From Carboxydothermus hydrogenoformans Z-2901 (lineage in GTDB: Bacteria > Bacillota > Z-2901 > Carboxydothermales > Carboxydothermaceae): DNA of 64,000 bases. Each line of letters begins with the position of its first letter. Position 1 is the first letter of the stretch. Of this stretch, positions 26,858 to 63,704 are shown one piece after another. The position numbers and the translations under genes are program-made. The stretch spans positions 1,116,001 to 1,180,000 of the forward strand of contig NC_007503.1 of NCBI RefSeq assembly GCF_000012865.1, read 5' to 3'. The notes beneath the pieces are model-generated. The model ran no database searches. It was not told where the DNA came from and saw only the letters and a list, made by a program, of their open reading frames with translations.

Positions 26858-28059
26858 AAATTGCCTATTTTCATTGTTTTGCCGGAATAAGTGGTGACAT
26901 GATTTTAGGAGCTTTAATTGATGCAGGGTTGGATTTTGAACAATTAAAAGCTGACTTAGCTAAACTATCATTGGATGGTTATGAGCTACAAGTAAAAAAA
27001 GTAAAGAAACAAGGAATAAGTGCGACCAAAGTAGATGTAATAATAGAGGAGGAACATGCACACCGTCATCTTCAGGACATAAAGAAAATCATAAGTGAAA
27101 GCTCGTTACCAGAGGTAGTAAAAGAAAAGAGTATCCAAGTTTTTACCCGTTTGGCTGAGGCAGAGGCCAAGGTCCATCAAACCACATTAGAGAAGGTACA
27201 TTTTCATGAAGTGGGGGCAAAAGATGCGATAGTTGATATAGTTGGTGCAGTAATAGGGCTATGGCGCTTAGGAATAGAAGAGGTATACTCCTCGCCCATT
27301 CACACCGGGATGGGTTTTACTCAAAGTGCTCATGGGAAAATTCCCGTTCCGGCACCGGCAACCTTAGAACTTTTAAAAGGCTGTCCCATTTACAGTGAAG
27401 GTATTGAGGCAGAGCTTACAACGCCAACGGGTGCAGCAATTCTTACATCATTTTGTAAGGAATACGGAGATATGCCGCTTATGGAAGTAACCCAAATAGG
27501 TTATGGAGCTGGTGAACGGGATTTGGAGATTCCAAATGTTTTACGGTTGAGTATTGGTATTAAAAGGGAAGAAAAAGGTTTTTGCAAACATACTGAGCAA
27601 AAAAATAGCTTTCATCAGGGAGAAGCAGTAAAAATCGAAGCAAATATAGATGATATGAACCCTGAATTTTACGATTATTTAATTACCAAATTTTTAAAAG
27701 CAGGGGCAATGGATGTCTATTTGGAAAGAGTGCAGATGAAGAAAAACAGGCCAGCGATTCTGCTCAATTTGCTGGTTCATGCTCACCAAGTGGAAGAGTT
27801 TTGCCGGCTGATCTTTGCAGAGACCACCACAATTGGTGTCCGCACCTATCCGGTTAAGAAATACATGTTGCCCTATGAAATTATTTCGGTAGAAACGGAA
27901 TTTGGTCCGGTACCGGTAAAGGTAGCTAAATATCAGGGAGTTGTCCAAAACATAGCCCCCGAATATGAGGTTTGTCGAAAAATTGCCGATGAGCAGCAAA
28001 AGCCGCTTAAAGAAATTTATGATTTGGTAAAGTTCCGTGCTTATCAGAGGTTAACGTAA
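26854..28059 (+). CDS. larC: LarC, CTP-dependent nickel-inserting cyclometallase
   Basis: A 401-residue protein that inserts nickel into the pincer nucleotide. The start [21 protein letters not shown] and the [28 protein letters not shown] stretch are diagnostic. In Lactobacillus, LarC is made from two frames by ribosomal frameshifting; here both parts are in one unbroken frame. The linker has a modest Cys/His/Lys-rich segment ([13 protein letters not shown] near 245-257). The C-terminal part with [17 protein letters not shown] corresponds to LarC2. Its presence together with larE and larB shows the cell can make the complete NPN cofactor, given nickel uptake encoded elsewhere. Confidence 0.93.
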
Positions 28060-34889: not shown

Positions 34890-34906
34890 AATAAAAATTT
34901 TTTCTT

Positions 34907-34948: not shown

Positions 34949-34992
34949 TACGTGTTTATTCATGAGATATAAAATTTTGAGGAGGGTTAATG

Positions 34993-43122: not shown

Positions 43123-44190
43123 ATGAATTTAAGAAAATTCGGGATTTTACTGCTTGCTCTATTATTTACATTTGGAATAATAACTGGTTGCGGCAAAGGT
43201 GGAACGAAAACTGAAGAAAAGAAAAGTAGTGAAAATAACCAGGGAGTAATTGAAATAAAATTATCCCACAGTTCACCGGCAACCAATGACCGTTTAGAAA
43301 CTGCCTGTCAGGCTTTTAAGAAGTATGTAGAAGAACATACCAATGGAAGAGTTAAAGTCACCACTTATCCTGCTAGCGTTTTAGGTGGTGAACGGGAGCA
43401 GTTGGAAGGAGTTCAAATGGGTACAATTCAAATGGCAGCTTTAAGTACTGGACCATTTCCAGGAATCTTTCCAGAAATAATGGTATTTGATATGCCTTAT
43501 CTCTTCCCTCAAGATACCAGAGTAGTTTACAAAGTATTAGATGGTCCAGTTGGGCAAGAAATAAGTGATTTATTATTGAAAAAAACCGGAGTACGTAATC
43601 TTGCATTTGGGGAAAATGGATTTAGACATTACACAAATAGCGTTAGACCTATCAAGAAACCGGGCGATATGAAGGGATTAAAGATTAGAACAATGGAAAA
43701 CCCTGCTCATATGGCTATTGTGAAAGCATTAGGTGGCAGTCCAACTCCCATGGCGTTTAATGAAGTTTATTCGGCATTACAAACGAAAACTGTTGATGGC
43801 CAGGAAAACCCAATTTCTCTAATTGTTTCAATGAAATTTTATGAAGTACAGAAATACTTAACCTTAGATGGTCATATATACAATCCTTACCTGCTTATTA
43901 TTAACGATAAGTTCTATAATAGTTTACCCGAAGATATTAGAAAAGTAATTGATGAAGGAGCAAAAGTCTGGCAAAAAGTTGAAAGAGAAGAAAACCAAAA
44001 ACAAATCGAAGCTGGGATGAAAGTATTAAAGAATGCGGGAATGGTTATAACTGAACTTACTCCCGAAGAACTTGAAGCATTTAAGCAGGCAACAAAAACA
44101 GTTTACGATCAGTTTAAATCGCAAATTGGTGAAGAACTCTTAAATAAAGTAATCAAGGCAGTCGAAGAAGCACAAAAAGAAATACAATAA
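43123..44190 (+). CDS. dctP: TRAP transporter solute-binding lipoprotein (DctP family)
   Basis: Extracytoplasmic binding protein (355 residues). A lipoprotein signal with lipobox ITGC (Cys23) precedes a Gly/Lys/Glu linker and the DctP fold: IKLSHSSPATNDRLETACQAFKKYV, ASVLGGEREQLEGVQMGTIQM and GLKIRTMENPAHMAIVKALGG. The family arginine in the latter usually holds the carboxylate of the ligand. It is followed by the DctQ and DctM subunits. Next to the hydroxyacid oxidase it probably imports a 2-hydroxycarboxylate. Start ATG 43123 follows AAGGAGGAG. Confidence 0.95.
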   Translation: MNLRKFGILLLALLFTFGIITGCGKGGTKTEEKKSSENNQGVIEIKLSHSSPATNDRLETACQAFKKYVEEHTNGRVKVTTYPASVLGGEREQLEGVQMGTIQMAALSTGPFPGIFPEIMVFDMPYLFPQDTRVVYKVLDGPVGQEISDLLLKKTGVRNLAFGENGFRHYTNSVRPIKKPGDMKGLKIRTMENPAHMAIVKALGGSPTPMAFNEVYSALQTKTVDGQENPISLIVSMKFYEVQKYLTLDGHIYNPYLLIINDKFYNSLPEDIRKVIDEGAKVWQKVEREENQKQIEAGMKVLKNAGMVITELTPEELEAFKQATKTVYDQFKSQIGEELLNKVIKAVEEAQKEIQ

Positions 44191-44204
44191 GAAAAAATTA
44201 AGTA

Positions 44205-44251
44205 GAAGAGAGCAGTGGCCCCAATTTATAGAAGGGCCAAATGCTCTCTTC
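44205..44251 (+). terminator. Hairpin between dctP and dctQ
   Basis: GAAGAGAGCA (44205-44214) pairs with TGCTCTCTTC (44242-44251), with an inner GGCCC/GGGCC helix. No T run follows. Such hairpins after binding-protein genes often keep their mRNA more abundant. Confidence 0.65.
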
Positions 44252-44333
44252 AAAATGATAAGTAATGATGTAAATAGGTAAAAAATAATAAAACAAAGTA
44301 TGTTAAATTTGGACAAGGAGGATGACAAAGTAC

Positions 44334-44825
44334 ATGAGTTTCTTAAAAAAACTTGATCGAATTTTGGAATTTATTGAACAAAATCTTGTTGCTATTTTAC
44401 TAATGATAATGACGGCGGTAGTATTTTGGGGGGTAATAACCCGTTTTGTTTTAAAAGATGCATCATCGTGGGCAGATGAAGCCTCAAGATATTTAAATAT
44501 TTGGGCGATTTATGTGGGAGCGAGCCTTGCTGCAAAAAGAGGGGCTCATATTGGGGTTGATGCTTTTGTGCATTTTTTACCCAAGCAAGCTCAACGTTTT
44601 GCTGCCATACTAGCAGCAGCTATTAATTTAATTTTCAGCTTCGCAATTGCTTATGTGGGCTATAGTTATACAATGGACATCGTAAAAACAGGTCAACTTT
44701 CCCCGGCCATGCGGATACCAATGGCATGGGCATATTTTGCAGTTCCATTTGGGCTTACCTTAATGGGCATTCGTTATCTTATGATTTTAATTGAAAATAT
44801 TACCGGAAAAAGTATATTAAGCTAA
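44334..44825 (+). CDS. dctQ: TRAP transporter small membrane subunit (DctQ)
   Basis: A 163-residue protein with four membrane segments. The pattern AVVFWGVITRFVLKDASSWADEASRYLNIWAIYVGAS is the DctQ hallmark (here cited in parts: WADEASRYL and MRIPMAWAYFAVPFG). ATG 44334 is preferred over ATG 44322, which touches the AAGGAGG site; spacing from that site is somewhat long at 12 bases. It works with DctM in sodium-driven uptake. Confidence 0.9.
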   Translation: MSFLKKLDRILEFIEQNLVAILLMIMTAVVFWGVITRFVLKDASSWADEASRYLNIWAIYVGASLAAKRGAHIGVDAFVHFLPKQAQRFAAILAAAINLIFSFAIAYVGYSYTMDIVKTGQLSPAMRIPMAWAYFAVPFGLTLMGIRYLMILIENITGKSILS

Positions 44826-44848
44826 GTTATGTAGGAGGTAGATACCTA

Positions 44849-46126
44849 ATGGCAAATATCTTGTTTACATTATTTATAATATTTGTGGTTTTGAATGTTC
44901 CAATAGGTATTGCAATTGGATTGTCAACATTTGGAGCAATATTAGCATCCCAAAAAGTACCATTATTTTTAGTTGCGCAAAGATTATTTACAGGTCTTGA
45001 TTCTTTCCCACTTTTGGCAATTCCCCTGTTTATGATTGCTGGAAGTCTAATGGAATCGGGTGGTATTTCCAAACGTTTGATTAATTTTGCTTCAAATATT
45101 GTAGGACCTATACCTGGCGGTTTGGCTATGGTCACCGTACTTGCCTGTATGTTTTTTGCAGCAATTTCTGGATCTGCGCCAGCTACTGTAGTTGCCATTG
45201 GATCAATTATGGTACCGGCTATGATTGAAGCTGGTTATGACAAAGATTTTGCTGTGGGATTAATAGCAGCATCAGGAATGATAGGTGTCTTAATTCCTCC
45301 GAGTATTCCCTTTGTTACCTATGGTATTACTATGAATGCTTCAATTGGTAAGCTATTTTTAGCTGGAATAGTGCCCGGTGTTTTATTTGGTCTATCTTTT
45401 ATGATTATTTCCTACTTTTATGCCAAAAAGCGAGGTTATAAAGGGACAGCTAAGCCTACTTGGAAAAGTTTTCTAACTTCATTTAAAGAAGCAATTTGGG
45501 CTTTAGGAATGCCTGCAATTATTTTAGGTGGAATTTACGGTGGGGTATTTACTCCAACTGAAGCAGCGGCAGTTGCCTGTGTTTATTCTTTAATTGTTGG
45601 CTTTTTTATCTACCGGGAACTTACTTTACAAAACATGTTTAAAAGTTTTGCCAATGCCGGTGTTTCTTCCGCAATGGTTGGTTTAATTATTGCTGCTGCT
45701 ACCGCAATGGGTTGGGTTTTAACTACGGAGCAGGTACCAACCAATGTAGCTACAGCTATCTCCAGTATTGCTCACAGTAAATTTATGCTGCTACTGTTAA
45801 TTAACTTAATCTTACTTATTACAGGATGTTTGATGGAACTCAATGCGGCAATCATTATTTTGGGGCCAATTTTCCTGCCACTTATTATGCAGTACAACAT
45901 AGATATTATCCATTTTGGTGTAATCATGGTGGTCAACTTAACAATTGGTCTTTTAACCCCTCCATTAGGTGTTAACTTGTTTGTTGCCAATGGTTTGCAA
46001 AAGGATCTTACATTATCGCAAGTTGTAAAAGCATCTCTTCCATTTATGATTTTCGCAATTATTGATTTAATGATCCTGACATATGTCCCTAATCTATCAC
46101 TATACCTAACGCATTTACTAAAATAA
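44849..46126 (+). CDS. dctM: TRAP transporter large permease (DctM)
   Basis: Membrane permease (425 residues) with about twelve hydrophobic segments and the DctM signatures LFMIAGSLMESGGISKRLI, ISGSAPATVVAIGSIM and GVLIPPSIPFVTYGI. The C-terminal LTPPLGVNLFVANGLQ is also typical. It forms the ion-coupled channel with DctQ, fed by the DctP lipoprotein. A large hairpin with T run (46181-46233) ends the operon. Confidence 0.95.
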   Translation: MANILFTLFIIFVVLNVPIGIAIGLSTFGAILASQKVPLFLVAQRLFTGLDSFPLLAIPLFMIAGSLMESGGISKRLINFASNIVGPIPGGLAMVTVLACMFFAAISGSAPATVVAIGSIMVPAMIEAGYDKDFAVGLIAASGMIGVLIPPSIPFVTYGITMNASIGKLFLAGIVPGVLFGLSFMIISYFYAKKRGYKGTAKPTWKSFLTSFKEAIWALGMPAIILGGIYGGVFTPTEAAAVACVYSLIVGFFIYRELTLQNMFKSFANAGVSSAMVGLIIAAATAMGWVLTTEQVPTNVATAISSIAHSKFMLLLLINLILLITGCLMELNAAIIILGPIFLPLIMQYNIDIIHFGVIMVVNLTIGLLTPPLGVNLFVANGLQKDLTLSQVVKASLPFMIFAIIDLMILTYVPNLSLYLTHLLK

Positions 46127-46180: not shown

Positions 46181-46233
46181 AAAAAGCGAATGAGTACGGT
46201 TGAAGAATTACAACCGGAAAGTTCGCGCTTTTT
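46181..46233 (+). terminator. Terminator after dctM
   Basis: AAAAAGCGAA at 46181-46190 pairs with the TTCGCGCTTTTT arm ending at 46233, with an inner GGTTG/CAACC helix. T run at the end. Confidence 0.75.
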
Positions 46234-46260
46234 CAACTAAAAATATTACTCGTTTTAAGT

Positions 46261-46276
46261 TGGCATTAATTTTGCA
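46261..46276 (+). promoter_or_regulatory. Sigma-54 promoter
   Basis: TGGCATT-AATT-TTGCA, correct -24/-12 spacing, 35 bp before the ATG at 46311. It heads the 46-59 kb cluster. Confidence 0.85.
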
Positions 46277-46310
46277 GAAAAGAATTATTATGAATTTGGA
46301 AGGTGCAAAG

Positions 46311-46982: not shown

Positions 46983-46998
46983 GGAGGTGAAGAGCAAA

Positions 46999-47379
46999 AT
47001 GAGAGCAATGCATACCAGTTTACCTGAATGGATTTTAAAAATGAAAGCCGCGGTTTATAACTATTCACCGTTTAAAGAAATAAAAATTAGAGGGATTGAA
47101 AATTTAAAACACGCAAAGTTTCAATCACTACGCACCGGACGAGTGGAATTTGCTGTGTCTGAACTTGCCGCTGATCATCGAATAAAAAATATCGAACTTG
47201 TAATCGTGCCAAGAATTCCCGAAACTATGCATACCATCATTATCAAAGGTTATGATGAAGAGGGTAAACCGGTAAAAGCCATATTAGAAAATACTAATAT
47301 TTTGCATCCAACTGAGGATGTGGAATTGGAAGGGTTTACCGAAATTGAAGACCGACGGCCAAAGCTGGGAGAGCACTAA
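46999..47379 (+). CDS. Uncharacterised small protein (126 aa)
   Basis: I do not recognise this 126-residue protein. It begins RAMHTSLPEWILKMKAAVYNYSPFKEI and is rich in beta-type segments (IELVIVPRIPETMHTIIIKGY). No membrane segment, signal or Cys pair is present. ATG 46999 follows AAGGAGGTG. It is 16 bp after the ATPase and 19 bp before the SDR start, firmly inside the operon, so it is likely a subunit or accessory factor of the pathway. Confidence 0.72.
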   Translation: MRAMHTSLPEWILKMKAAVYNYSPFKEIKIRGIENLKHAKFQSLRTGRVEFAVSELAADHRIKNIELVIVPRIPETMHTIIIKGYDEEGKPVKAILENTNILHPTEDVELEGFTEIEDRRPKLGEH

Positions 47380-47398
47380 AAGGGAGGGGGAGATTAAC

Positions 47399-48148
47399 TT
47401 GGGAGAATTAACCGGTAAGGTAGGTATAGTGACAGGTGGAAGTAAAGGGATTGGATTTGCTACAGCAAAGCGGATAGCTGAGGAAGGGGCTAAAGTAGTA
47501 ATTGCCAATCGTAATAAAGAAGAGGGAGAGAAAGCAGCTTTACAATTACGTGAAAAAGGCCTGGAGGTTTATAGCATCCCATGTGACGTTGGGAAAGTTG
47601 CTGATATAAAAAAATTAGTTTCTGAAGTGTATGGGCGTTATGGACGCATTGATATTTTAGTTAATTGTGCAGGAGTTAATGTTCGGAAACCTATTGAGGA
47701 GTACACAGAAGAAGATTGGAATTACATGGTTGATATTAATTTGAAAGGAACATTTTTTGCCTGCATTGAGGCAGGCAAACATATGATTGCTCAAAAAGAG
47801 GGGGTAATTGTAAATTTAGCTTCTATTCAAGCGGAAGAAGTTTTACCAGAACGAGGAATTTACGCAACTACTAAAGGTGGGGTAAAGCAACTTACAAAAG
47901 CCTTAGCAGTAGAATGGGCGAAATATAATATTCGGGTAAATGCAGTATCGCCGGCTTTTATCAAAACAGAAATGGTTGAGAAAGTCCTGCAAGATCCCTA
48001 CTGGGGTAATTTAATTATTAACAAAACCCCGATGCGAAGGCCAGGAACCCCTGAAGAGGTTGCCGAAGCGATTTTGTTTTTAGTTTCCCCTAAAGCTTCG
48101 TATATAACTGGAATTAATTTGCTGGTGGATGGAGGCTGGACAGCCTAA
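47399..48148 (+). CDS. Short-chain dehydrogenase/reductase
   Basis: NAD(P)-dependent oxidoreductase (249 residues) of the classical SDR family: cofactor motif VTGGSKGIGFATAKRIAEEG, LVNCAGVN, catalytic NLASIQ Ser and YATTKGG Tyr-Lys pair, and the usual LLVDGGW ending. It resembles 3-ketoacyl-reductase/gluconate 5-dehydrogenase-type enzymes. The TTG at 47399 follows AGGGAGGGGG. It overlaps the alcohol dehydrogenase start by one base (TAATG). The two oxidoreductases may oxidise successive hydroxyl groups or one alcohol and one hydroxyacid. Confidence 0.9.
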   Translation: MGELTGKVGIVTGGSKGIGFATAKRIAEEGAKVVIANRNKEEGEKAALQLREKGLEVYSIPCDVGKVADIKKLVSEVYGRYGRIDILVNCAGVNVRKPIEEYTEEDWNYMVDINLKGTFFACIEAGKHMIAQKEGVIVNLASIQAEEVLPERGIYATTKGGVKQLTKALAVEWAKYNIRVNAVSPAFIKTEMVEKVLQDPYWGNLIINKTPMRRPGTPEEVAEAILFLVSPKASYITGINLLVDGGWTA

Positions 48149-49203: not shown

Positions 49204-50232
49204 ATGAGTAAAAAAATTAAAGTACGATTTTTACCGAAAGGCCGTGGTCCCAAACATGGAGCGCCGGTAACTATCGCGTATGTTGATGTTAAAGAATTTC
49301 AAGAAGCAAATTTGGAAATAGATGAAGGTTTAAAAATTATTGCAAAGTACTTTAATTCTCCTGTAGCTATAAATGTGTTTGATATGGAAAATGCTTTTAC
49401 GACCACCAGTGATGGACTTTGTGTAGAAGGAGCAATTATCGCATTTGCTGCTGCTGATAGGGGGAAAATTCATCCCGAGTTTGGACGGCTATTTTGTAAA
49501 GAGCGGGAATTAAAGCCAGAAATGTTTGAACGGGAGCCTCATTTGAGGATGGGTTATGAAAATTTTCCCACCAAAAAGCTTTATATAGGACCGGATCCAG
49601 CTCAGAAGCTTGTGCCTTTACACAATGTTGTGATTAGTGGCAGGACGGTAAATAATAATTCAGGTACAGAAGTAATGGATTGCGTAACAATGGAAGAAAT
49701 GCTTCTGCCAATATTGGGACAACTTCAAATAATGCGAGATGAGGATATACTTTGGGGCATTACAGGTGGACATATATCTGTGGGAATTGGTTGTACAATT
49801 GTTGAAGATTATAGTCGTTCCCAGCCTTTTATGAAATGTAAACCGGGTAATACTGCTCATAATTCAGGACCTTATGCTCAAACATTGAAAGCAAAACTAC
49901 CTTGTATTGTTGCTCCAAAAGATGTGTTAGCAAAACATATTCTTGATGCGTTGGATTTTGGATTAAGACCGGCGAAAGAATTGGGATGCTCACCGGCGGT
50001 ATTATATGTTGCGGCTTACTACGGGGTAGATCTAAATATTGAGAATATTACTCCAGCAGCAAGGTTGGAGTTAGAAGCACTTGGAATTGACCTTGATAAA
50101 TTGCCTGAAATAACTCCTAAATTAAGTCGGGAAGAAATAATAGCTCGTGCGGATGAGATAATTCCTGGAGTTGAAAATGCTGAGCTGATTCCAAGCACGG
50201 CAATTATAGAAAAAGTTGAGATTGTTTTGTAG
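49204..50232 (+). CDS. Uncharacterised conserved-looking protein (342 aa)
   Basis: A 342-residue soluble protein I cannot assign. It has strongly patterned segments that look catalytic: FLPKGRGPKHGAP, NAFTTTSDGLCVEGAI, VVISGRTVNNNSGTEVMDC, GGHISVGIGCTIVEDYS and KPGNTAHNSGPYAQTLKAKLPC. Several Cys/His fall in these. No membrane segment. The C-terminus has LGIDLDKLPEITPKLSREEI. It ends at the first base of an in-frame GTG of the next gene. Its place between dehydrogenases and a MoCF protein suggests an enzyme of this pathway, possibly a reductase or isomerase subunit. A structure or profile search would decide. Confidence 0.75.
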   Translation: MSKKIKVRFLPKGRGPKHGAPVTIAYVDVKEFQEANLEIDEGLKIIAKYFNSPVAINVFDMENAFTTTSDGLCVEGAIIAFAAADRGKIHPEFGRLFCKERELKPEMFEREPHLRMGYENFPTKKLYIGPDPAQKLVPLHNVVISGRTVNNNSGTEVMDCVTMEEMLLPILGQLQIMRDEDILWGITGGHISVGIGCTIVEDYSRSQPFMKCKPGNTAHNSGPYAQTLKAKLPCIVAPKDVLAKHILDALDFGLRPAKELGCSPAVLYVAAYYGVDLNIENITPAARLELEALGIDLDKLPEITPKLSREEIIARADEIIPGVENAELIPSTAIIEKVEIVL

Positions 50233-50255
50233 TGGGGGGAGGAGGAAGTAAGACT

Positions 50256-50804
50256 GTGGATGACATAACAATTGAAGAAGTCGTCATTATTCCAACAGGT
50301 GGTGAAATAAAACAAGGAATTGTATTGGATACAAACTCACCAAAATTAATGGAGTTAATATTAAAAAAATGGCCTGATTGTAAGGTGATTAGAACACCTC
50401 CACCAGAAGATGATATAAGCGCCATACAAAAAGAAGTAAAAAAATGGGGTAAATGCAAGGGAATTATATTTATTACAGGTGGTGCAGGTGGGGGAAAGAA
50501 ATTTAACAGTGGTTTAACAGTTGATTGTACGCATGTTGCTGTTTTAGAACTAATTCAAAATGCTGAATCAGTAGAAATACATGGTAGTAATGGTCATTTA
50601 TTAGCCAAAATTGTAGTAGGTAAATATGAAGAAAAGGTAATTATAACTTTGCCAGGACCTACGGTTGAGGCAGTTAGCGGAGCAAAAGCCGCATTAAAAG
50701 TTTTAGATAAAGGCCTTTTAGATTGCAAGGTGATAGCCTTTGAGGTTGCTGATGCGATTTTTAGTCAATATCCCCAGAAAGAAAAAATTTTAAATCAATA
50801 TTAA
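50256..50804 (+). CDS. MoCF-domain (MogA/MoaB-like) protein
   Basis: A 182-residue protein related to molybdopterin-binding domains: IIPTGGEIKQGIVLDTNSPKLMEL at the start, IIFITGGAGGGKKFNSGLTV near 75 and ITLPGPTVEAVSGAKAAL near 130. The usual TTGGTGxxxxD is altered: GGAGGGKKFN lacks the aspartate, so canonical MogA activity is unlikely. It is the short counterpart of the protein at 21412, which also sits beside a LarA homologue. GTG 50256 follows GGAGGAGG. Ferredoxin follows after 15 bp. Confidence 0.72.
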   Translation: MDDITIEEVVIIPTGGEIKQGIVLDTNSPKLMELILKKWPDCKVIRTPPPEDDISAIQKEVKKWGKCKGIIFITGGAGGGKKFNSGLTVDCTHVAVLELIQNAESVEIHGSNGHLLAKIVVGKYEEKVIITLPGPTVEAVSGAKAALKVLDKGLLDCKVIAFEVADAIFSQYPQKEKILNQY

Positions 50805-50819: not shown

Positions 50820-51038
50820 TTGAAAGTAACTGTTGATTATGAACGGTGTAAAGGTTGTGGATTATGTATTGATGTTTGTCCTAAAAAAATTATTTATTTA
50901 AATCAAGATTTTAACAGTAAAGGTTATTATTATGCAACCATTTCAAATATTGAAGAATGTATTGGCTGTGGAAGATGCTATCAGATTTGCCCTGACCTGG
51001 TATTTGAAGTGAAAGAGGAGGCGAAGATTAATGGGTAA
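50820..51038 (+). CDS. 2-oxoacid:ferredoxin oxidoreductase delta subunit
   Basis: A 72-residue ferredoxin-type subunit with two [4Fe-4S] motifs, CKGCGLCIDVCP and CIGCGRCYQICP. In four-subunit 2-oxoacid oxidoreductases (VOR/KOR) this subunit carries electrons from the thiamine site to soluble ferredoxin. TTG 50820 follows AAAGAGGTG. It overlaps the alpha subunit gene by 8 bp, so it is the first gene of the delta-alpha-beta-gamma set. Confidence 0.9.
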   Translation: MKVTVDYERCKGCGLCIDVCPKKIIYLNQDFNSKGYYYATISNIEECIGCGRCYQICPDLVFEVKEEAKING

Positions 51039-52113
51039 AGTATTATTTAAAGGTGCTGAAGCCATTGCGGAAGCTGCCATTCGAAGTGGATGTAAATTTT
51101 TCTTTGGCTATCCAATTACGCCTCAGACTGAAGTAGCTGAATATATGGCAAAAAGGTTACCGCAAGTTGGGGGAGTTTACCTTCAAGCGGAAAGTGAAGT
51201 TTCAGCTATTAATATGGTATTTGGGGCAGCTGCTACAGGAGCACGGGTTATGACATCTTCATCCAGTCCTGGTGTGAGCTTAAAGCAAGAGGGGATTTCT
51301 TATATTGCAGGAGCTGAATTACCTTGTGTTGTTGTAAATATCATGCGTGGTGGACCTGGTTTAGGTTGTATTCAGGCAGCCCAATCAGATTATTTTCAAG
51401 CGGTAAAAGGTGGCGGACATGGAGACTATAAAAACATTGTTTTAGCACCGTCAACTGTTCAAGAAGCGGTTGATTTAGTGTCTCTTGCCTTTGATTTAGC
51501 AGATAAATATAGAAATCCAGTAATGATTTTAGGAGATGCGGTTCTTGCACAAATAATGGAGCCGATTGAATTACCTGAAGAGAAAAAGGAATTGCCTGAA
51601 AAACCATGGGCAATTACTGGTTGCAGTAATCGGGAGCAAAATATAATTACCTCATCATACCCGGTACCTGAGGATTTAGAAGCTGTAAATGAAAGGCTCA
51701 ATGCAAAGTATAAGCAGATTATAAAAGAAGAACAACGCTGGGAAGAAGATGGGGTAGATGATGCAGAGTTGGTTTTTGTTGCATATGGAACTAGTGCCCG
51801 GATAGCAAAAGATGCTGTTGAAACTTTAAGAAATAAAGGAAAGAAAGTTGGTTTGATTAGACCAATAACCTTATGGCCTTTCCCGAAAAAAGCGTTTAAG
51901 AATAGAATGGCGGGCAAGAAAATATTAGTAGTTGAGATGAGCAAAGGACAAATGGTCGAAGACGTTGAAATTGCAGTTAAAGGTCAAGGCGAAATTTATT
52001 TCTATGGAAGAACAGGTGGCATTGTGCCCTATGTTGAAGAAGTTCTCGAAGTAGCTGAAGCTATTTTAAACAATGAAAATGTTAAAAAATGGGGGGAAGA
52101 TGATGAAAACTAA
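51031..52113 (+). CDS. 2-oxoacid:ferredoxin oxidoreductase alpha subunit
   Basis: A 360-residue subunit with domains I and II of the pyruvate/2-ketoisovalerate:ferredoxin oxidoreductase family: GAEAIAEAAIRSGCKFFFGYPITPQTE at the start, SSSPGVSLKQEGISY, and a transketolase C-terminal part with ELVFVAYGTSARIAKDAV. The four-subunit complex decarboxylates a 2-oxoacid with thiamine diphosphate, forms an acyl-CoA and reduces ferredoxin. It resembles branched-chain and 2-oxoglutarate-type enzymes, so a non-pyruvate substrate is likely. It overlaps the beta subunit by 11 bp. Confidence 0.92.
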   Translation: MGKVLFKGAEAIAEAAIRSGCKFFFGYPITPQTEVAEYMAKRLPQVGGVYLQAESEVSAINMVFGAAATGARVMTSSSSPGVSLKQEGISYIAGAELPCVVVNIMRGGPGLGCIQAAQSDYFQAVKGGGHGDYKNIVLAPSTVQEAVDLVSLAFDLADKYRNPVMILGDAVLAQIMEPIELPEEKKELPEKPWAITGCSNREQNIITSSYPVPEDLEAVNERLNAKYKQIIKEEQRWEEDGVDDAELVFVAYGTSARIAKDAVETLRNKGKKVGLIRPITLWPFPKKAFKNRMAGKKILVVEMSKGQMVEDVEIAVKGQGEIYFYGRTGGIVPYVEEVLEVAEAILNNENVKKWGEDDEN

Positions 52114-52840
52114 AGAGTACATTCGTCCAAAAAGTTTAAAGCCTACCCAAACCCACTACTGTCCAGGGTGTACTCATGGGATTATCCATCGGATTTTAGC
52201 TGAAGTCTTAGATGAAATGAATTTGAGAGAAAAGGCTGTAGCAGTAATTGGGGTTGGTTGTTCATGTTTTGCTGAAAGGTATTTTAATTTTGATTGCATT
52301 GATGTAGCTCATGGGCGGGCACCGGCAGTGGCTACTGGAGTTAAAAGGGCTAATCCGAATTTAGTAACGATAACGTATCAAGGCGATGGAGACATGACGG
52401 CGATCGGTTCGGCTGAGGCTTTGCATGCCGCAATTCGCGGGGAAAAAATTACTTCAATTATGATAAATAATGCTATTTATGGAATGACTGGAGGTCAAAT
52501 GTCACCAACTACGTTGATTGGACAAAAAACATCTACATCTCCCTATGGTAAAAAGGCAGAAGAAGCAGGATATCCAGTGCGGTTTGTTGAGACGTTAGCT
52601 TTACAGGAAGGAGTAGCATATGCAGCTCGAACTGCAGTAAATAACATTGGAAATATTTTAAAAACAAAAGCAGCTATAAAAAAAGCATTACAAGCACAAA
52701 TAGATGGTAAAGGTTATTCAATAGTTGAAATATTATCGACTTGCCCAACCAACTGGGGTGTATCGCCTAAAGAAGCACTAAAATGGATTGAAGAAAAAAT
52801 GATTCCAGTATTTCCGTTAGGTGAGTTTAAAGAAATTTAA
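52103..52840 (+). CDS. 2-oxoacid:ferredoxin oxidoreductase beta subunit (thiamine-binding)
   Basis: A 245-residue thiamine diphosphate-binding subunit. YCPGCTHGIIHRI holds the conserved CPGCxHG, VGCSCFAERYF a further cysteine, and the TPP/Mg motif is YQGDGDMTAIGSAEALHAAIRGEKITSIMINN (seen as GDGDM and NN). ATG 52103 follows GGGGGGAAG. It needs the alpha and gamma subunits. The gamma gene starts 14 bp after it. Confidence 0.92.
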   Translation: MKTKEYIRPKSLKPTQTHYCPGCTHGIIHRILAEVLDEMNLREKAVAVIGVGCSCFAERYFNFDCIDVAHGRAPAVATGVKRANPNLVTITYQGDGDMTAIGSAEALHAAIRGEKITSIMINNAIYGMTGGQMSPTTLIGQKTSTSPYGKKAEEAGYPVRFVETLALQEGVAYAARTAVNNIGNILKTKAAIKKALQAQIDGKGYSIVEILSTCPTNWGVSPKEALKWIEEKMIPVFPLGEFKEI

Positions 52841-52854
52841 ATGAGGTGATGATT

Positions 52855-53400
52855 GTGGAAGCGACAATTTTTGCTGGTTTTGGTGGCCAAGGGGTAATGA
52901 GGATTGGACAATTATTAACTTATGCAGGCTTAAAAGAAGGGAAGGGAGTAATCTGGTATCCGGCTTATGGTTCTGAACAGCGAGGTGGCACGGCCAACTG
53001 TACTGTAATTATAGACGAAAGAAGAAGCCAGGTAGTTTCGCCTGTAGTAAAATATCCTACATCGTTAGTTATTTTAAATGAACCGTCATTGCTCAGGTTT
53101 GAGGCAAGATTAATGGCAGGGGGTAAACTTTTTTACAATAGCTCGTTGGTGAAATCAAAGCCTAAGCGGGAAGATATTGATGTATATCCAATTCCTGCTA
53201 ATAAAATAGCTGAAGAACTCGGCAATGTAATGGCGGCAAACATGGTTATGCTAGGTGCTATGGCAGCTATTACAAAAGTTGTAGATATTGACAGCTTAAA
53301 AAATGAATTGACAACTATATTTAAAGGAAAAAGTGAAAATATTATAAAATTAAATGAACTGGCATTAGAAAAAGGTAGGGAAGCAGCATTGCAATTATAA
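52855..53400 (+). CDS. 2-oxoacid:ferredoxin oxidoreductase gamma subunit
   Basis: A 181-residue subunit with FAGFGGQGVMRIGQLLTYAG at the N-terminus, WYPAYGSEQRGGTANCTVII and NMVMLGAM, hallmarks of domain III. It closes the four-subunit complex. GTG 52855 follows GAGGTG; an earlier GTG at 52846 overlaps that site. The 4-hydroxybutyryl-CoA dehydratase homologue follows directly, which suggests that the CoA ester made here is its substrate. Confidence 0.92.
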   Translation: MEATIFAGFGGQGVMRIGQLLTYAGLKEGKGVIWYPAYGSEQRGGTANCTVIIDERRSQVVSPVVKYPTSLVILNEPSLLRFEARLMAGGKLFYNSSLVKSKPKREDIDVYPIPANKIAEELGNVMAANMVMLGAMAAITKVVDIDSLKNELTTIFKGKSENIIKLNELALEKGREAALQL

Positions 53401-53431
53401 AATAAAAAATTTTGAGGGGGAAGTGTTTATT

Positions 53432-54907
53432 ATGCCTTTAAAAACAGTAAAGGAGTACCTTAATAGCTTAAGAGCGATGAAGTTTGAAGTTTATTTTAGG
53501 GGAGAGCGGATAGAAAATCCAGTAGATCACCCCGTAATACGTCCTTCAGTTAATGCTGTAGCTATGACCTATGCTTTAGCGCATAATAGTAAGTACAAAG
53601 ATCTTGCTACTGCTTATTCACCTTTTGTTGATAAGTATGTAAATCGTTTTACTCATATTCATCAAAGCACTGATGATTTGTTAAAAAAAGTTGAGTTGTT
53701 AAGAACAATTGGGCAATTAACTGGGGTTTGTTTCCAACGTTGTGTTGGCATGGACGGTTTAAATGCCGTTTATGCTGTAACGTATGAAATAGATGAAAAA
53801 TATGGGACCCAATATCACCAAAGGTTTATAAATTATTTAAAATATGTGCAAGAAAATGATTTAGTTGTAGATGGAGCTATGACAGATCCGAAAGGTGACA
53901 GGGGGTTAAGGCCTTCTGAACAGGAAGATAAGGATCTTTATTTGCGGGTTGTTAAGGAAACAGAAGAAGGGATAGTTGTTCGGGGTGCTAAGTTCCACCA
54001 AACAGGAGCTATTAACTCCCATGAAATATTAGTCATGCCAACAATCTCCTTAAAAGGAGAAGAAGAAAAACCCTACGCAGTATCTTTTGCTGTACCTTCG
54101 GATTCTCCAGGAATAGTCTATGTATATGGACGTCAGCCATCGGATTTAAGAAGTTTGTACGATGCTCCTGAGGATTGTGGCAATCCTAAATTTGCGGGGC
54201 AAGAAGCTGTGGTAATTTTTAATGATGTTTTTGTTCCCTGGGAAAGGGTATTTATGTGCGGTGAAGTGGAGTTTGCTGGAAATCTTGTCGAGTATTTTGC
54301 AAGTTACCATAGGCAAAGCTATGGTGGATGCAAAGTTGGAGTTGGTGATGTTTTAATTGGAGCTGCTGCTAATATTGCGGAGTTTAATGGGGTAGATAAA
54401 GCTTCGCATATTAAAGATAAGATTGTTGAAATGATTCATTTAAATGAAACGATATTTTCTTGTGGTGTTGCTTGCTCTTGTTTGGGGTATAAAACAAGTG
54501 CAGGTAACTATATGGTTGATAGATTATTGGCAAATGTTTGCAAACAAAATGTAACACGGATGCCCTATGAAATTGCAAGGCTACTGCAGGATATAGCTGG
54601 CGGACTTTTTGTGACAATGCCGTCATGGAAAGACTTAGAAAATGGTAAGGTTGGAGAATTGTTGCAGAAATATTTGGTCGGCAAGAAAGGCGTAAAAGTA
54701 AAAGATCGGGTAAAACTAATGAGATTAATAGAAAACTTAACATTAGGACGATCTGCTGTTGGGTATTTACCGGAATCGATGCATGGTGCCGGTTCACCTC
54801 AAGCTCAAAGAATTATGATTACCAGGCTTGCTGATATAGAGAAAAAGAAAAAGTTTGCCTTGCGGTTAGCTGGAATTGGTGAGCAAGAAAATGAGCGATT
54901 GGAGTGA
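53432..54907 (+). CDS. abfD: 4-hydroxybutyryl-CoA dehydratase/vinylacetyl-CoA isomerase homologue
   Basis: A 491-residue flavin and [4Fe-4S] enzyme of the HpaB/AbfD superfamily. The clostridial enzyme binds its cluster with C99, C103, H292 and C299; here C100, C104, H293 and C300 match with the same spacing, each shifted by one. Length also agrees. The family removes water from 4-hydroxybutyryl-CoA by a radical mechanism to give crotonyl-CoA. Presence of the cluster ligands argues against an oxygen-using hydroxylase. ATG 53432 follows GAGGGGG. No CoA-transferase or ligase is next to it; the upstream 2-oxoacid oxidoreductase could supply the CoA ester. Confidence 0.88.
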   Translation: MPLKTVKEYLNSLRAMKFEVYFRGERIENPVDHPVIRPSVNAVAMTYALAHNSKYKDLATAYSPFVDKYVNRFTHIHQSTDDLLKKVELLRTIGQLTGVCFQRCVGMDGLNAVYAVTYEIDEKYGTQYHQRFINYLKYVQENDLVVDGAMTDPKGDRGLRPSEQEDKDLYLRVVKETEEGIVVRGAKFHQTGAINSHEILVMPTISLKGEEEKPYAVSFAVPSDSPGIVYVYGRQPSDLRSLYDAPEDCGNPKFAGQEAVVIFNDVFVPWERVFMCGEVEFAGNLVEYFASYHRQSYGGCKVGVGDVLIGAAANIAEFNGVDKASHIKDKIVEMIHLNETIFSCGVACSCLGYKTSAGNYMVDRLLANVCKQNVTRMPYEIARLLQDIAGGLFVTMPSWKDLENGKVGELLQKYLVGKKGVKVKDRVKLMRLIENLTLGRSAVGYLPESMHGAGSPQAQRIMITRLADIEKKKKFALRLAGIGEQENERLE

Positions 54908-54914: not shown

Positions 54915-55298
54915 TTGGGATCTGTACGCATAATAGCTTATATAGATAAGACGGTAGTAAAAATTGTAGGATTTAAAATTGATAGAATTAATTTAATGGA
55001 AATTGAAAAAAAATTAATAGAAATATTAAAACGACCGGTGCGTGTAATTGGTGTTAGCGGAGAAAGTTTGGAATTTGATGTTTATGAATTGCCTCCGGAA
55101 CAGGTTTATAGGAATGAACGTAATATTATTGAGGCTATTGCAAATGAAGGTATAGAGGGGGTTGAAGTGGCAAAAATTGTTAAAGCCGAGCAGGTTCCGG
55201 AGGTTAATCTTGATGATTTAATATTAAAACCTGATGAAGAATATAATTGTCCAGCGGAAAGGTGGTTGCGATGGAAAAAGCTGGAGGAAGAGAAATAA
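54915..55298 (+). CDS. Uncharacterised protein upstream of the second LarA homologue
   Basis: A 127-residue protein without a recognised family. It has an N-terminal beta-type part (VRIIAYIDKTVVKIVGFKID), a second repeat-like unit (RPVRVIGVSGESLEFDVYEL) and a charged C-terminus with PAERWLRWKKLEEE. TTG 54915 is the only start after the preceding in-frame stop and has GGAGTGA before it. Its end overlaps the LarA homologue by 28 bp, so the two are tightly coupled; an accessory subunit or chaperone for that enzyme is one possibility. Confidence 0.7.
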   Translation: MGSVRIIAYIDKTVVKIVGFKIDRINLMEIEKKLIEILKRPVRVIGVSGESLEFDVYELPPEQVYRNERNIIEAIANEGIEGVEVAKIVKAEQVPEVNLDDLILKPDEEYNCPAERWLRWKKLEEEK

Positions 55299-56608
55299 AA
55301 AGTTATAACTTTTATGTTGACTTTGAGCCTATTGTGGCGCTAGTTAAAGATACGGTAATTCCCAAGATGTATAAAGTCAGGCAAAAGTTTGATGTACCGG
55401 TACTAAAAAATCCTGTTGAAAAATTAAACCAAGAACTTCGCAATAAAGAAGAAGTCATGAAAAAGTTAAAAGGAAAAAGAGTATGTATTGCGGTAGGTAG
55501 CAGAGGTATAGCGAATATTGCGGATTTTGTTGCAGAAACGGTAAAAGTAGTTAAGGATTATGGTGGAGAACCGTTTATTATTCCCGCTATGGGAAGCCAT
55601 GGCGGGGCTACCAATGAAGGACAAAAGCAGGTTTTAGAAGAGCTTGGCATAACTGAAGAAACTGTAAAAGCGCCAATTGTTTCGCATTTAGACGTAGAAT
55701 TAGTAGGGAAAACAAGGGAAAATGTCCCTGTTTATGCAAGTTGTGATGCTTTAAACGCTGATGCAGTTATCATTATAAATAGAATAAAACCTCATACATC
55801 TTTTAGCGGCGATATTGAGAGCGGTATTATAAAAATGATAGTAATAGGGCTTGGTAAGCAAAAGGGAGCCGAAGTGTGCCATAAAATGGGTTTTTATCGC
55901 TTTTCCGAACGGTTGCAAGAAATGGCTCGGGTAATTTTAACTAAAGTTCCAGTGGTTTTAGGAATAGGTTTAATAGAAAATGCCTATGATGAAACTGCTG
56001 AAGTTAAGGCGTTAACGACTGATGAGTTTTTTGTTGAAGAACCCAAACTTTTAAACCTGGCAAAATCATTAATGCCGAAAATTTTAGTAAACAATTTAGA
56101 TGTTTTAATCGTTGATGAAATAGGTAAAGATATCAGTGGAGATGGAATGGATCCAAATGTGACGGGAAGATTTGCTTCTGATTATGGAAAAGGAGATTTA
56201 ATCGTAGATAGAATAGTGGTTCTACGTCTAACCGAACGGACAGAAGGTAATGCAAATGGTATTGGTGTAGCAGATGTTACTACATTAAAGGTTTTAGAAA
56301 GTACTGATTTTACGAAAGGATATATAAATAGTATTACTGCTGCAATACCGCGTACCGTTCGTTTGCCAATGGTTATGCCTAATGACGAAATGGCAATTAA
56401 GGCAGCAATCAAAACTGCTAATAACTTTGATTATGTCGGTGAAGACACTAGAATAGTACGCATTAAAAATACTTTAAATGTAGAGCAAATTTACATTTCG
56501 CAAGCACTTTTGTCAGAAGTAAGAGCAAATTCATCATTAGAAATTGTTGATGGGCCAATTGACTTTGCTTTTGACGAAGAGGGAAATATTTTAACAGGAT
56601 GGAAATAA
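55271..56608 (+). CDS. LarA-superfamily nickel-pincer-dependent isomerase
   Basis: A 445-residue member of the lactate racemase (LarA/DUF2088) superfamily. All four LarA functional positions have counterparts: H110 in AMGSHGGAT (LarA H108, acid/base), H175 in KPHTSF (H174), K188 in GIIKM (K184, holds the cofactor) and H204 in VCHKMG (H200, nickel ligand); K188 to H204 keeps the spacing of 16. The family racemises or epimerises 2-hydroxyacids by hydride transfer. ATG 55271 follows GAAAGGTGG. Its cofactor could come from larEBC at 25-28 kb. It probably interconverts stereoisomers of a hydroxyacid in this cluster; substrate unknown. Confidence 0.82.
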   Translation: MEKAGGREIKSYNFYVDFEPIVALVKDTVIPKMYKVRQKFDVPVLKNPVEKLNQELRNKEEVMKKLKGKRVCIAVGSRGIANIADFVAETVKVVKDYGGEPFIIPAMGSHGGATNEGQKQVLEELGITEETVKAPIVSHLDVELVGKTRENVPVYASCDALNADAVIIINRIKPHTSFSGDIESGIIKMIVIGLGKQKGAEVCHKMGFYRFSERLQEMARVILTKVPVVLGIGLIENAYDETAEVKALTTDEFFVEEPKLLNLAKSLMPKILVNNLDVLIVDEIGKDISGDGMDPNVTGRFASDYGKGDLIVDRIVVLRLTERTEGNANGIGVADVTTLKVLESTDFTKGYINSITAAIPRTVRLPMVMPNDEMAIKAAIKTANNFDYVGEDTRIVRIKNTLNVEQIYISQALLSEVRANSSLEIVDGPIDFAFDEEGNILTGWK

Positions 56609-56648
56609 TAAGGAGTGGTTGTGAGAAATTTAAGATGAAAGAGTGGTT

Positions 56649-57305
56649 ATGTTGTTTGTTTTTTCCCTTAATATTCAGTTAAGTCCTTCCATTTCATTTC
56701 TTACACTTGGATATGGAAATTACAATGTTGGAAGTAAACACTTACCTTTTTTGTGTGCAATAAGTAAATTGCGAAAACAGATAGAAAAGGAAAAAAATGC
56801 AGTGGAAATGATAAGGGATCCTGTTGCGCTTGATTATTGGTTAGCCAAGCAAAGTAAATTTTTAGCAATAGATGGTATTGAGGTAGTGGCTTTAAGTTTA
56901 AATAATCCATTAATTAAGGAGCCAGGTGGAGGTGTAATAGGTTCACCGTTTAAAAAACTGCAGCCTGCCCGGGGTGAAATTGAGTTTTTAAAAAGTGATA
57001 TTGGAATTTTAACTTTTCCTGAAGGTCCTGGAGTAGCACTTATTGGAATAGATAAAAGTGACTTTGAAAACTTTCGAAAGGAATTAGGTAAGCTTAAAGA
57101 GGTAAAGTATAATTTTTGTCGAATTTTAGATTTAATAGAAAAAACTAAAGTTAAAACAGCGCTTTTCATTTCTGATGGATGTGGTTTAGTAGAAACTGGT
57201 GGTGGCTTTTATATTAGGAAATTCAATATTAGAAAATTTTTTTTCTTACCCTGGGGCAGAGTGAGTGGTGAATATGAATTGGAATTATATGTGTGGCAAT
57301 GTTAA
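56649..57305 (+). CDS. Uncharacterised protein (218 aa)
   Basis: I do not recognise this 218-residue protein. Distinct segments are LGYGNYNVGSKHLPFLCAI, PVALDYWLAKQSKFLAIDG, KEPGGGVIGSPFKKLQPARG and SDGCGLVETGGGFYI. Three Gly-rich turns suggest a nucleotide, flavin or cofactor site. ATG 56649 is chosen with GAAAGAGTGG upstream, though GTG 56643 is open. Its end overlaps the downstream activator by 32 bp, an unusual amount. It may belong to the LarA-linked pathway. Confidence 0.65.
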   Translation: MLFVFSLNIQLSPSISFLTLGYGNYNVGSKHLPFLCAISKLRKQIEKEKNAVEMIRDPVALDYWLAKQSKFLAIDGIEVVALSLNNPLIKEPGGGVIGSPFKKLQPARGEIEFLKSDIGILTFPEGPGVALIGIDKSDFENFRKELGKLKEVKYNFCRILDLIEKTKVKTALFISDGCGLVETGGGFYIRKFNIRKFFFLPWGRVSGEYELELYVWQC

Positions 57306-59058
57306 TGAGGAAGGGGTTAAAAAATATTTAAAGGAGTTAAGCAATAAAAAAAATGTAGTACCGGTATTTGTTAGTGTATTTAATTTAAAAGGAGAGTTAT
57401 TAGCTTTTTACTGTAAAGTTTGTGAAAATTGCAAATTCAAAGAAAGCCCCTTTCCTTTAGAGCATGAATTACTAAATATGTGTTTTAATGATGAGTTAAA
57501 AATTATAGTAGAGTCAATTATTGAAGAAGTGGACAGGTTGGATGATTTAGTAATTAAAGTTAAGACAGTAAAAATAAGTAGCTTATTAAAAAAAATTAAA
57601 GAACTTTCATTCTTGCAAGAAGAACTGGAAGCTATTATCGAAAGCTCGTATGATGGTATTTACGTTTCAGACTGTACTGGAAAAACATTAAGGATAAACA
57701 AAGCTTATGAGAGAATTACTGGTATAAAAAAAGATGAAGTTATTGGGAGACGACTTGATGAATTAAAGGCTGAAGGTTATTTTTCCGAAATTGTTTACAA
57801 GCAGGTAGTGAAAGAAAAACGGCCTGTAACAATTTTGCAAAAAATAAAAAATGAAAAAGAAGTTGTGGTAACGGGAAATCCTGTATTAGACAATAGTGGT
57901 GAAGTTAAACGTGTTGTGACCAATGTTCGTGATATTTCTGAGTTAAACATGTTACGGAGAGAACTTGCTGAAGTTAAAGAAAAGTCAAAGCATTATCAAC
58001 GAAAAATTGTAGAACTTCAAGAAAAATTAACTCTATTTTGTCAAGCTCAGCAAGACTTTAAAGGTTTTATTATCAAAAGTCCTCTAATGAAGGATGTAAT
58101 ATATAAGGCATTGAGAGTAGCAAGGACTGATACTACAGTCTTAATAATTGGAGAGTCTGGAACTGGCAAGGAAGTTATTGCCCGGTTTATTCATTTTAAT
58201 AGTTTACGTAAAGATAAAGCGTTTTTACCTGTTAATTGTGGTGCAATTCCTGAAAATTTAATGGAATCTGAATTTTTTGGTTATGAACCTGGTGCTTTTA
58301 CTGGTGCCCTTAAAACAGGTAAAATGGGGTTTTTTGAGTTAGCTCAGGGAGGAACGCTATTTTTAGATGAAGTAGGAGAACTTCCTTTGCATTTACAAGT
58401 AAAATTACTTAGGGCATTACAAACGAAAGAAATAATGCGTTTGGGAAGTACAAAACCTATAAAAGTAGATGTACGCATTATTGCTGCAACTAATCGCAAT
58501 TTAGCTAAATTGGTGGAAGAAGGTAAGTTTCGAGAAGATTTATATTACAGGCTAAATGTTATATCTATTGAAATACCTCCTTTACGAAAGCGAAAAGAAG
58601 AAATTATTCCAATGGCAATGGAATTTCTTACTCGAATTAATGAAAAGTATGGTAGTGAAAAAAAATTTACAAGAGAAGTATTAGAAATATTAAAAGAATA
58701 TAAATGGCCTGGTAATATTCGGGAATTGGAAAATGTAATTGAACATGCATATGTGGTAAGTCAGGATGAAATTAACGTTGAAGATTTGCCTATACATTTG
58801 GATTCACTTTACGGGGAACCTGGTAACATTGCTTTAATTAGAAAGACATTACAAAATAGGGAAAATATCACTTTAGATGAAGCAATTAGTTTAGTTGAAA
58901 AGAAGTTAATAGAAGATGCTTTGTTAAAATATGGTACAGAAACTCGAGCAGCAAGTGTTTTAGGTGTAAATCAATCGACTATATCGCGGAAGATTAAAAA
59001 GTACAATATTGATGTTAAAAAAATAATTGAAAAAAATAACGAAAAAGAATTAAGTTAG
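57274..59058 (+). CDS. Sigma-54-dependent activator with Cys-rich N-terminus and PAS
   Basis: A 594-residue enhancer-binding protein. The first 75 residues hold C47, C50, C53 (KVCENC) and C70, which may bind a metal or Fe-S cluster. A short coiled coil and a PAS domain follow (about 120-235). The AAA+ part has GESGTGKEV, EPGAFTGAL and FLDEVGELP. The Fis-type helix-turn-helix ends the protein (ETRAASVLGVNQSTISRKIKK). It is the last gene of the 46-59 kb cluster and lies just before a sigma-54 promoter at 59240. It is a good candidate for binding the TATGCA-type palindromes. Start ATG 57274 after GAGTGGTG; GTG 57265 is possible. Confidence 0.92.
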   Translation: MNWNYMCGNVNEEGVKKYLKELSNKKNVVPVFVSVFNLKGELLAFYCKVCENCKFKESPFPLEHELLNMCFNDELKIIVESIIEEVDRLDDLVIKVKTVKISSLLKKIKELSFLQEELEAIIESSYDGIYVSDCTGKTLRINKAYERITGIKKDEVIGRRLDELKAEGYFSEIVYKQVVKEKRPVTILQKIKNEKEVVVTGNPVLDNSGEVKRVVTNVRDISELNMLRRELAEVKEKSKHYQRKIVELQEKLTLFCQAQQDFKGFIIKSPLMKDVIYKALRVARTDTTVLIIGESGTGKEVIARFIHFNSLRKDKAFLPVNCGAIPENLMESEFFGYEPGAFTGALKTGKMGFFELAQGGTLFLDEVGELPLHLQVKLLRALQTKEIMRLGSTKPIKVDVRIIAATNRNLAKLVEEGKFREDLYYRLNVISIEIPPLRKRKEEIIPMAMEFLTRINEKYGSEKKFTREVLEILKEYKWPGNIRELENVIEHAYVVSQDEINVEDLPIHLDSLYGEPGNIALIRKTLQNRENITLDEAISLVEKKLIEDALLKYGTETRAASVLGVNQSTISRKIKKYNIDVKKIIEKNNEKELS

Positions 59059-62805: not shown

Positions 62806-62908
62806 AGGAAAAACATATAAATTTTTCAATTGAAAAAATTAGCTTTGAACGCCTTATGAAAAAGGTTATTTGAGTAGGATTTTTATTAAATGGTTAAGGA
62901 GGAAAATT

Positions 62909-63697: not shown

Positions 63698-63704
63698 CGA
63701 TTAA
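62939..63704 (+). repeat. 766-bp direct repeat, copy 2 (within mhpD)
   Basis: Corresponds to 22356-23121. The same three-base difference apart, no mismatch was seen by eye. Confidence 0.93.

Follow-up and report, generated by a model that had tools for sequence, protein, structure and literature searches.

Which reaction is catalysed by the LarA-like protein encoded at positions 55271-56608 of this stretch of Carboxydothermus hydrogenoformans Z-2901 DNA, with which cofactor, and which of its many neighbours belong with it? A previous sequence-only reading had seen here a second LarA homologue within a 4-hydroxybutyryl-CoA dehydratase cluster. We have followed up that reading over the whole 64,000-nt stretch (hereafter the window) and over related loci in other genomes. 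By its sequence, the protein is a probable nickel-pincer (NPN) cofactor-dependent epimerase of a 2-hydroxyacid or aldonate. The genes relevant to the argument are the following (strand given after the coordinates).

25276..28059, +: larE-larB-larC (NPN cofactor biosynthesis), 27 kb upstream; TIGR00268 373.3, NF033503 309.3 and TIGR00299 229.2 bits, each above its cut-off
43123..46126, +: TRAP transporter, three subunits (named by eye), whose blastp families 3, 2 and 1 occur in 25, 26 and 33 of 81 group 22 loci
46987..47379, +: U130 (130 aa), cassette gene of an undescribed family; no NCBIfam match at 1e-10, best Pfam E 0.25
47318..48148, +: SDR-family oxidoreductase (up to 249.5 bits with SDR models of NCBIfam), its real start probably lying downstream of 47318; also in locus L066
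48148..49185, +: Zn-dependent alcohol/polyol dehydrogenase (ADH), threonine 3-DH/idonate 5-DH like (TIGR00692, 225.9 bits, below cut-off); also in L066
49204..50232, +: U342, core cassette protein of an undescribed family, with a weak hint of a DapF/PrpF-like fold
50232..50804, +: MoCF-domain cassette protein (190 aa; Pfam MoCF_biosynth, E 4.7e-10)
50820..51038, +: small ORF (72 aa), likely a ferredoxin-type oxidoreductase subunit, assigned by position
51031..52113, +: 2-oxoacid:ferredoxin oxidoreductase (VOR), VorB-type subunit (NF005507, 557.6 bits, cut-off 399); a local insertion, missing from most cassettes
52073..52840, +: the same enzyme, TPP subunit (TPP_enzyme_C, E 1.2e-19)
52846..53400, +: the same enzyme, gamma subunit (POR, E 4.2e-39)
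53423..54907, +: AbfD, 4-hydroxybutyryl-CoA dehydratase homologue (660.7 bits to 1u8v), with equivalents of C99, C103, H292 and C299
54915..55298, +: U127, cassette gene of an undescribed family, overlapping the start of LarA22 with its 3' end
55271..56608, +: LarA group 22 protein (LarA22), 445 aa; NF052515 match, AlphaFold2 model with a LarA fold, conserved residues
56643..57305, +: U220, cassette gene of an undescribed family
57265..59058, +: sigma-54-dependent regulator (domain named by eye), in a blastp cluster shared with regulators at other group 22 loci; in 9 of 21 U342 loci

The LarA22 gene and its family

The plus-strand frame at 55271-56608 is open throughout, and the opposite strand is noncoding and stop-rich. 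The start codon is ambiguous by a few codons: the ORF list has a TTG at 55247, and close relatives start at about residue 8-10. LarA22 matches, over its full length, the NCBIfam model for the nickel pincer cofactor-dependent isomerases of group 22 (NF052515, 526.9 bits, cut-off 400), a group found over this cut-off in 84 of 398 genomes of the phylum. Its scores with Pfam Lar_N (30.5 bits, cut-off 23.3) and Pfam DUF362 (PF04015; 31.1 bits, cut-off 24) are about equal. Sequence searches of the PDB, with the single protein or with a profile, found nothing at E≤1, and identity to LarA and LarAH structures (5HUQ, 6C1W, 6D6Z, 9EID) is about 15%.

An AlphaFold2 model of LarA22, built from 15 sequences, has a mean pLDDT of 87.6. 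With this model, Foldseek returned 19 chains at E≤0.001, LarA-family entries without exception, and VIA-align gave Z scores of 19.9-21.8 for the 12 LarA-family entries listed, the next row having Z 6.2. The best match, 9eid (Z 21.8, rmsd 4.4 over 330 residues), has the two-domain LarA fold. Since LarA-family entries top both searches, membership of LarA22 in the LarA superfamily is well supported, and the earlier recognition of a LarA homologue at this position stands. That it is the second one was not confirmed: the protein at 19008-20447, presumably meant as the first, has no Pfam match at E≤1, and its hhalign probabilities are 1.9% (LarA), 4.9% (group 22) and 14% (DUF362).

No account of the substrate of group 22 was found in the available portions of the literature, and the term "group 22" is absent from the main text, as far as available, of PMC7583248, PMC11770544, PMC12611868 and PMC11796402. 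The two other genomes searched from the same genus (G048 and G087) have no group 22 protein at E≤1e-30, which means that not every member of the genus carries the gene.

Active-site residues

Six residues, R78, H110, H175, K188, H204 and K286, are invariant in all 84 aligned group 22 proteins from the 81 surveyed loci. In a profile-profile alignment of group 22 with LarA (probability 96%, E 1.9e-9), H110, H175, K188, H204 and R78 fall on H108, H174, K184, H200 and R75 of LarA (numbering as in the available text of PMC7583248). According to the available parts of PMC7583248 and PMC11770544, H108 and H174 of LarA are catalytic, K184 tethers the NPN and H200 is a nickel ligand. The sequence-only reading had placed the two catalytic-type histidines, the lysine and the third histidine close to the lactate racemase numbers, with a conserved Lys-His spacing; both points were confirmed, the spacing (K188-H204 versus K184-H200) being 16 in either protein. 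Other features differ. That is, the His-Lys spacing is 10 in LarA and 13 in LarA22 (H175-K188), and D72 of LarA, a signature-logo position in the available published text, is absent from group 22, in which position 75, equivalent by the R75/R78 register, is V, A, C, G, T or L in 84 of 84 proteins. In two attempts, the C-domain did not align reliably enough to place the catalytic K298 of LarA, with Q295, and the invariant K286 is at most a candidate equivalent.

The group 22 profile is nearly as close to DUF362 (E 6.5e-9) as to LarA. To our knowledge, no nickel-pincer cofactor has been assigned to DUF362. The H/K/H site of LarA is kept almost invariantly in 29 DUF362 proteins (L146-L175) and in L002, equivalents of H175, K188 and H204 being present in 29, 28 and 28 of the 29. 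The DUF362 proteins lack an equivalent of H110, which LarA22 has, and carry conserved cysteines (Fe-S type motifs) in 24-28 of 29 cases, whereas the LarA22 translation contains no CxxC-type motif. As three of the four residues are shared, only H110 and R78 set the LarA22 signature apart from DUF362; the residues themselves are present as claimed, and the argument built on them is weaker than it had been made to appear. DUF362 and LarA belong to one clan (PMC11770544, available text).

A conserved gene cassette around U342

The neighbourhood survey covered 81 group 22 loci (80 stretches plus the window), a subset of the group 22 matches. U342 is encoded in eight of them, including the window. 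From each species with U342, a single genome was scanned, which yielded 17 U342 loci, four of which repeated loci already known, giving 21 distinct loci (within the 17 scanned genomes, searches with PF09861 covered 11 and those with NF052515 covered 13). Six of the other seven U342-bearing group 22 loci have the order LarA22-U130-U342-U127-MoCF-U220 or parts of it, and five are preceded by a TRAP transporter. The order in L066 is U130-SDR-ADH-U342-MoCF-U127-LarA22, which is that of the window without VOR and AbfD; its LarA22 and U342 are 71% and 82% identical to those of the window. Among the 21 loci, U130 occurs in 20, the MoCF gene in 17, U127 in 16, U220 in 15 and LarA22 in 15; in the remaining six, LarA22 is found elsewhere in the genome or as a fragment only. 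Thus the conserved context of LarA22 is a U130-U342-U127-MoCF-U220 cassette, often accompanied by a TRAP transporter, and not AbfD.

At the genome level, a group 22 LarA over cut-off is present in 20 of the 21 genomes with U342, compared with 84 of the 398 genomes sampled from the phylum, the exception being G404, which has only a LarA22 fragment with a stop. Thermosediminibacter, Fonticella and Clostridium aestuarii are among the culturable carriers. On a maximum-likelihood tree of LarA22 (91 rows), presence in a U342 cassette requires five changes, at least three of them forced by well-supported branches, and shuffled labels require 14.2 on average. The cassette-bearing proteins fall into four groups: one of nine rows, L052 with L082, two from Sporomusa, and the window with L066. 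The association of different LarA22 lineages with one and the same core argues for a real functional link, and part of the pattern could be due to losses or to cassette transfer. In two Clostridium-type loci (L124 and L125), Vor genes, U130, U342 and U220 are accompanied by larB, and in L125 also by larC, with LarA22 not in the locus.

U130, U342, U127 and U220 have no match in NCBIfam (for U130, searched only at 1e-10) or, at E≤0.001, in Pfam. Searching all 21 members of U342 against Pfam gave nothing credible (best E 0.013, for one member). A U342 model built from 21 sequences has a pLDDT of 89.6; Foldseek found no match to it in the PDB at E≤0.001. In VIA-align, the first 24 rows were PrpF-type isomerases, hydroxyproline dehydratases/epimerases, proline racemases, DapF, PhzF and similar proteins, with Z at most 4.6, and the predicted structure thus gives a hint of a DapF/PrpF/proline racemase-like fold. 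U127 shows a likeness to the N-terminal part of the MoCF-domain protein at 21412 that was treated as weak (E 1.4e-7 against one target, 3.6e-4 among 6490 frames) and was not seen in the loci of relatives, which extend no further than about 1.5 kb downstream. At 46200-46982, after the TRAP genes and before the cassette, lies a gene for a P-loop ATPase that is weakly CbiA/MinD-like (Pfam E 4.8e-6) and could be of a metal-insertion type. In the available portions of the literature we found no account of the U342 cassette, which has no searchable name.

Substrate class and proposed pathway

Genes of sugar-acid metabolism (IlvD, DapA, UxaA, FGGY kinase, KDPG aldolase, KDG kinase, 6PGDH and PdxA/DUF1537) are present in 41 of the 81 group 22 loci versus 3 of 40 control stretches from surveyed genomes (P 1.1e-6), with the proviso that neighbour families were chosen by their recurrence near group 22, which flatters the P values, and that several single families are not significant. 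2-Hydroxyacid oxidoreductases (GlcD/GlcF or D-2-hydroxyacid dehydrogenase) occur in 35 loci versus 4 controls, and TRAP transporters in 33 versus 5. One Pfam-searched representative each gave the names IlvD, D-2-hydroxyacid dehydrogenase, FGGY kinase, DapA, UxaA, KDPG aldolase, 6PGDH, PdxA and DUF1537; GlcD/F, TRAP and KDG kinase were named by eye. The two closest LarA22 proteins outside the cassette (70-71% identical) are encoded in operons with FGGY kinases, DapA and D-2-hydroxyacid dehydrogenase, as well as a transketolase and an aldolase (by eye), and one of these operons also has IlvD and UxaA. A DUF1537 kinase and PdxA are found in three U342 loci as well (L116, L121 and L122). Such a pair is known from threonate/erythronate catabolism, and threonate and erythronate can differ at C2, the site of LarA action. 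The neighbourhoods of group 22 therefore point to sugar acids, and the earlier expectation of a hydroxyacid substrate other than lactate appears likely to be right. A similar setting is known for GntE, the D-gluconate 2-epimerase of another LarA group (LarAH19/20; 4NAR), which shares with LarA22 the LarA fold (Z 20.1) and a sugar-acid context and acts on gluconate (PMC7583248, available text).

The analysis shows these neighbourhoods, the family, the (predicted) fold and the conservation of the residues and of the cassette; the substrate class, the direction and the order of steps are what we infer. The reading that we favour, with somewhat better than even confidence, is that LarA22 is an NPN-dependent C2-epimerase of a sugar-type acid (a C4-C6 aldonate) feeding an undescribed set of catabolic enzymes. 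In such an enzyme, K188 would carry the NPN and H204 would be a nickel ligand, while H110 and H175 would alternate as base and acid, the C2 hydride passing via the cofactor, so that C2 of a sugar-type 2-hydroxyacid (C4-C6 aldonate) would be inverted. The acid would be imported by the TRAP transporter and converted by LarA22 into an epimer usable by the cell, on which the U130-U342-U127-MoCF-U220 proteins would then act. In the genome of the window, the product would proceed, as a 2-oxoacid, to an acyl-CoA by way of the SDR, the ADH and the VOR-type oxidoreductase, and AbfD would be a local addition.

A more far-reaching version, which we put forward tentatively and regard as short of an even chance, concerns the cassette itself. 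Its five proteins, U130, U342, U127, MoCF and U220, may form an undescribed multi-protein enzyme of anaerobes with a chemistry of its own on sugar-type hydroxyacids, in which U342 might act as an isomerase or dehydratase remotely like DapF/PrpF, with LarA22 as the required stereochemical partner, recruited repeatedly from different lineages.

NPN cofactor genes

The cofactor assumed in the favoured epimerase reading is also something that we infer, making LarA22 a putative nickel-pincer enzyme. Besides larE-larB-larC in the window, LarB, LarC and LarE are each encoded at one further locus of the genome, and so the idea that one cofactor set serves two LarA-type enzymes does not fit a genome with two sets. 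The genome also encodes a LarAH6 malate racemase (curated model, over cut-off, 615 bits) at genome positions 56182-57414, about 1.1 Mb away.

We surveyed LarB in 398 genomes of the phylum. It is present in 217 overall, in 57 of 85 group 22 genomes, in 45 of 69 genomes with LarAH6 over cut-off and in 130 of 198 with strong Lar_N. Genomes having group 22 without strong Lar_N contain LarB in 17 of 31 cases, versus 70 of 169 genomes with neither (P 0.17). Of the 28 group 22 genomes in which LarB is missing, 24 are also without LarC and 27 without LarE over cut-off; two of the group 22 genomes that are single contigs (G021 and G189) lack all three. Genomes with U342 have LarB in 18 of 21 cases versus 217 of 398 (P 0.006), and larB and/or larC lie inside the cassette locus in L120, L124 and L125, both of which speak for an NPN link of the cassette. 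LarB is not recognisable in about a third of the genomes with strong LarA-type enzymes, LarAH6 included (e.g. G347, G021 and G189), for which cofactor uptake or another route is possible.

These data bear on the proposal that group 22 works without NPN, the H/K/H site of the clan, which DUF362 keeps too, holding some other ligand or cofactor for a different hydroxyacid reaction. In its favour, besides a profile distance to DUF362 about equal to that to LarA, is the lack of LarB, mostly together with LarC and LarE, in a third of group 22 genomes, while the R, H, H, K, H set is kept in 23 aligned sequences from LarB-less genomes. However, LarB is missing equally often with LarAH6 (24/69) and with strong Lar_N (68/198). 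Its absence therefore does not single out group 22, and we dropped it as an argument against NPN; co-occurrence with LarB lends no support to NPN in group 22 but does not exclude it. Moreover, H110 and R78 are LarA-like and a full LarA fold is predicted, and we consider an NPN-free group 22 unlikely.

AbfD and the 2-oxoacid:ferredoxin oxidoreductase

The neighbours of LarA22 are what they had been named, that is, a 2-oxoacid:ferredoxin oxidoreductase, AbfD, an SDR and an ADH, but the oxidoreductase and AbfD lie within another, conserved gene cassette. AbfD is a strong homologue of the solved Clostridium enzyme (1u8v) and has C, C, H and C at the positions aligned with C99, C103, H292 and C299, which we take to be the [4Fe-4S] ligands of 4-hydroxybutyryl-CoA dehydratase. 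A thiolase, a hydroxyacyl-CoA dehydrogenase and a crotonase (by eye) are encoded at 29547-35766. AbfD and the oxidoreductase could suit a different route, in which LarA22 would use NPN to racemise a simple 2-hydroxyacid, for instance 2-hydroxyglutarate, and VOR and AbfD would lead from the hydroxyacid via the 2-oxoacid and 4-hydroxybutyryl-CoA to crotonyl-CoA. The over-cut-off VorB and the recurrence of VOR genes beside the U342 cassette in 4 of 21 loci (the window, L118, L124 and L125) agree with this route, the recurrence suggesting that a 2-oxoacid may be a recurrent product of the cassette loci. AbfD itself, however, adjoins group 22 in 1 of 81 loci, that of the window, and is missing from all 17 U342 loci that the scan of genomes yielded, and was rejected as a family-wide clue to function; the Vor frequency (6/81 versus 1/40 controls) has a P of 0.26; and the closely related cassette of L066 contains neither Vor nor AbfD. 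The description of the locus as a 4-hydroxybutyryl-CoA dehydratase cluster is thus not supported, and we regard the crotonyl-CoA route as quite improbable. Relatives of AbfD (37-43%) occur in 2 of the 40 controls, so the family is not rare.

It is very unlikely that LarA22, instead of being a free-standing epimerase, is a subunit of the U342 system or donates a cofactor to it, its hydride step serving the cassette enzyme, since despite near-strict co-occurrence (20/21 genomes, in several LarA22 lineages) group 22 works without U342 at 73 of 81 loci, and six U342 loci have LarA22 elsewhere or as a fragment only.

Other genes in the window

Directly upstream of larE-larB-larC, within 19008-28059, are genes for a 479-aa protein without a Pfam match, a NadC-like protein, a MoCF-domain fusion, a 2-oxopentenoate hydratase, an acetaldehyde dehydrogenase and an aldolase (several named by eye). 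The family of the 479-aa protein (19008-20447) is present in 18 of 239 genomes of the phylum, and 17 of these also encode LarB, which in several lies at a distance of about 7.5 kb. This looks like a separate NPN-linked system. A hydratase-like gene occurs twice in the window, at 22314-23121 and 62897-63704, the copies being 98.3% identical over 808 bases, the result of either a recent duplication or gene conversion.

Implications

That roughly one in three genomes with strong LarA-type enzymes has no recognisable LarB bears on the choice between uptake of the cofactor and its synthesis by an alternative route. Among the nickel-pincer enzymes, group 22 forms a large branch that is curated but has no assigned substrate, and the U342 cassette provides it with a testable setting that includes a transporter, a regulator and partner genes. 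The cassette adds four protein families undescribed in Pfam and NCBIfam, and, its members lying outside the standard family libraries, the gene set as a whole is a better research target than LarA22 alone.
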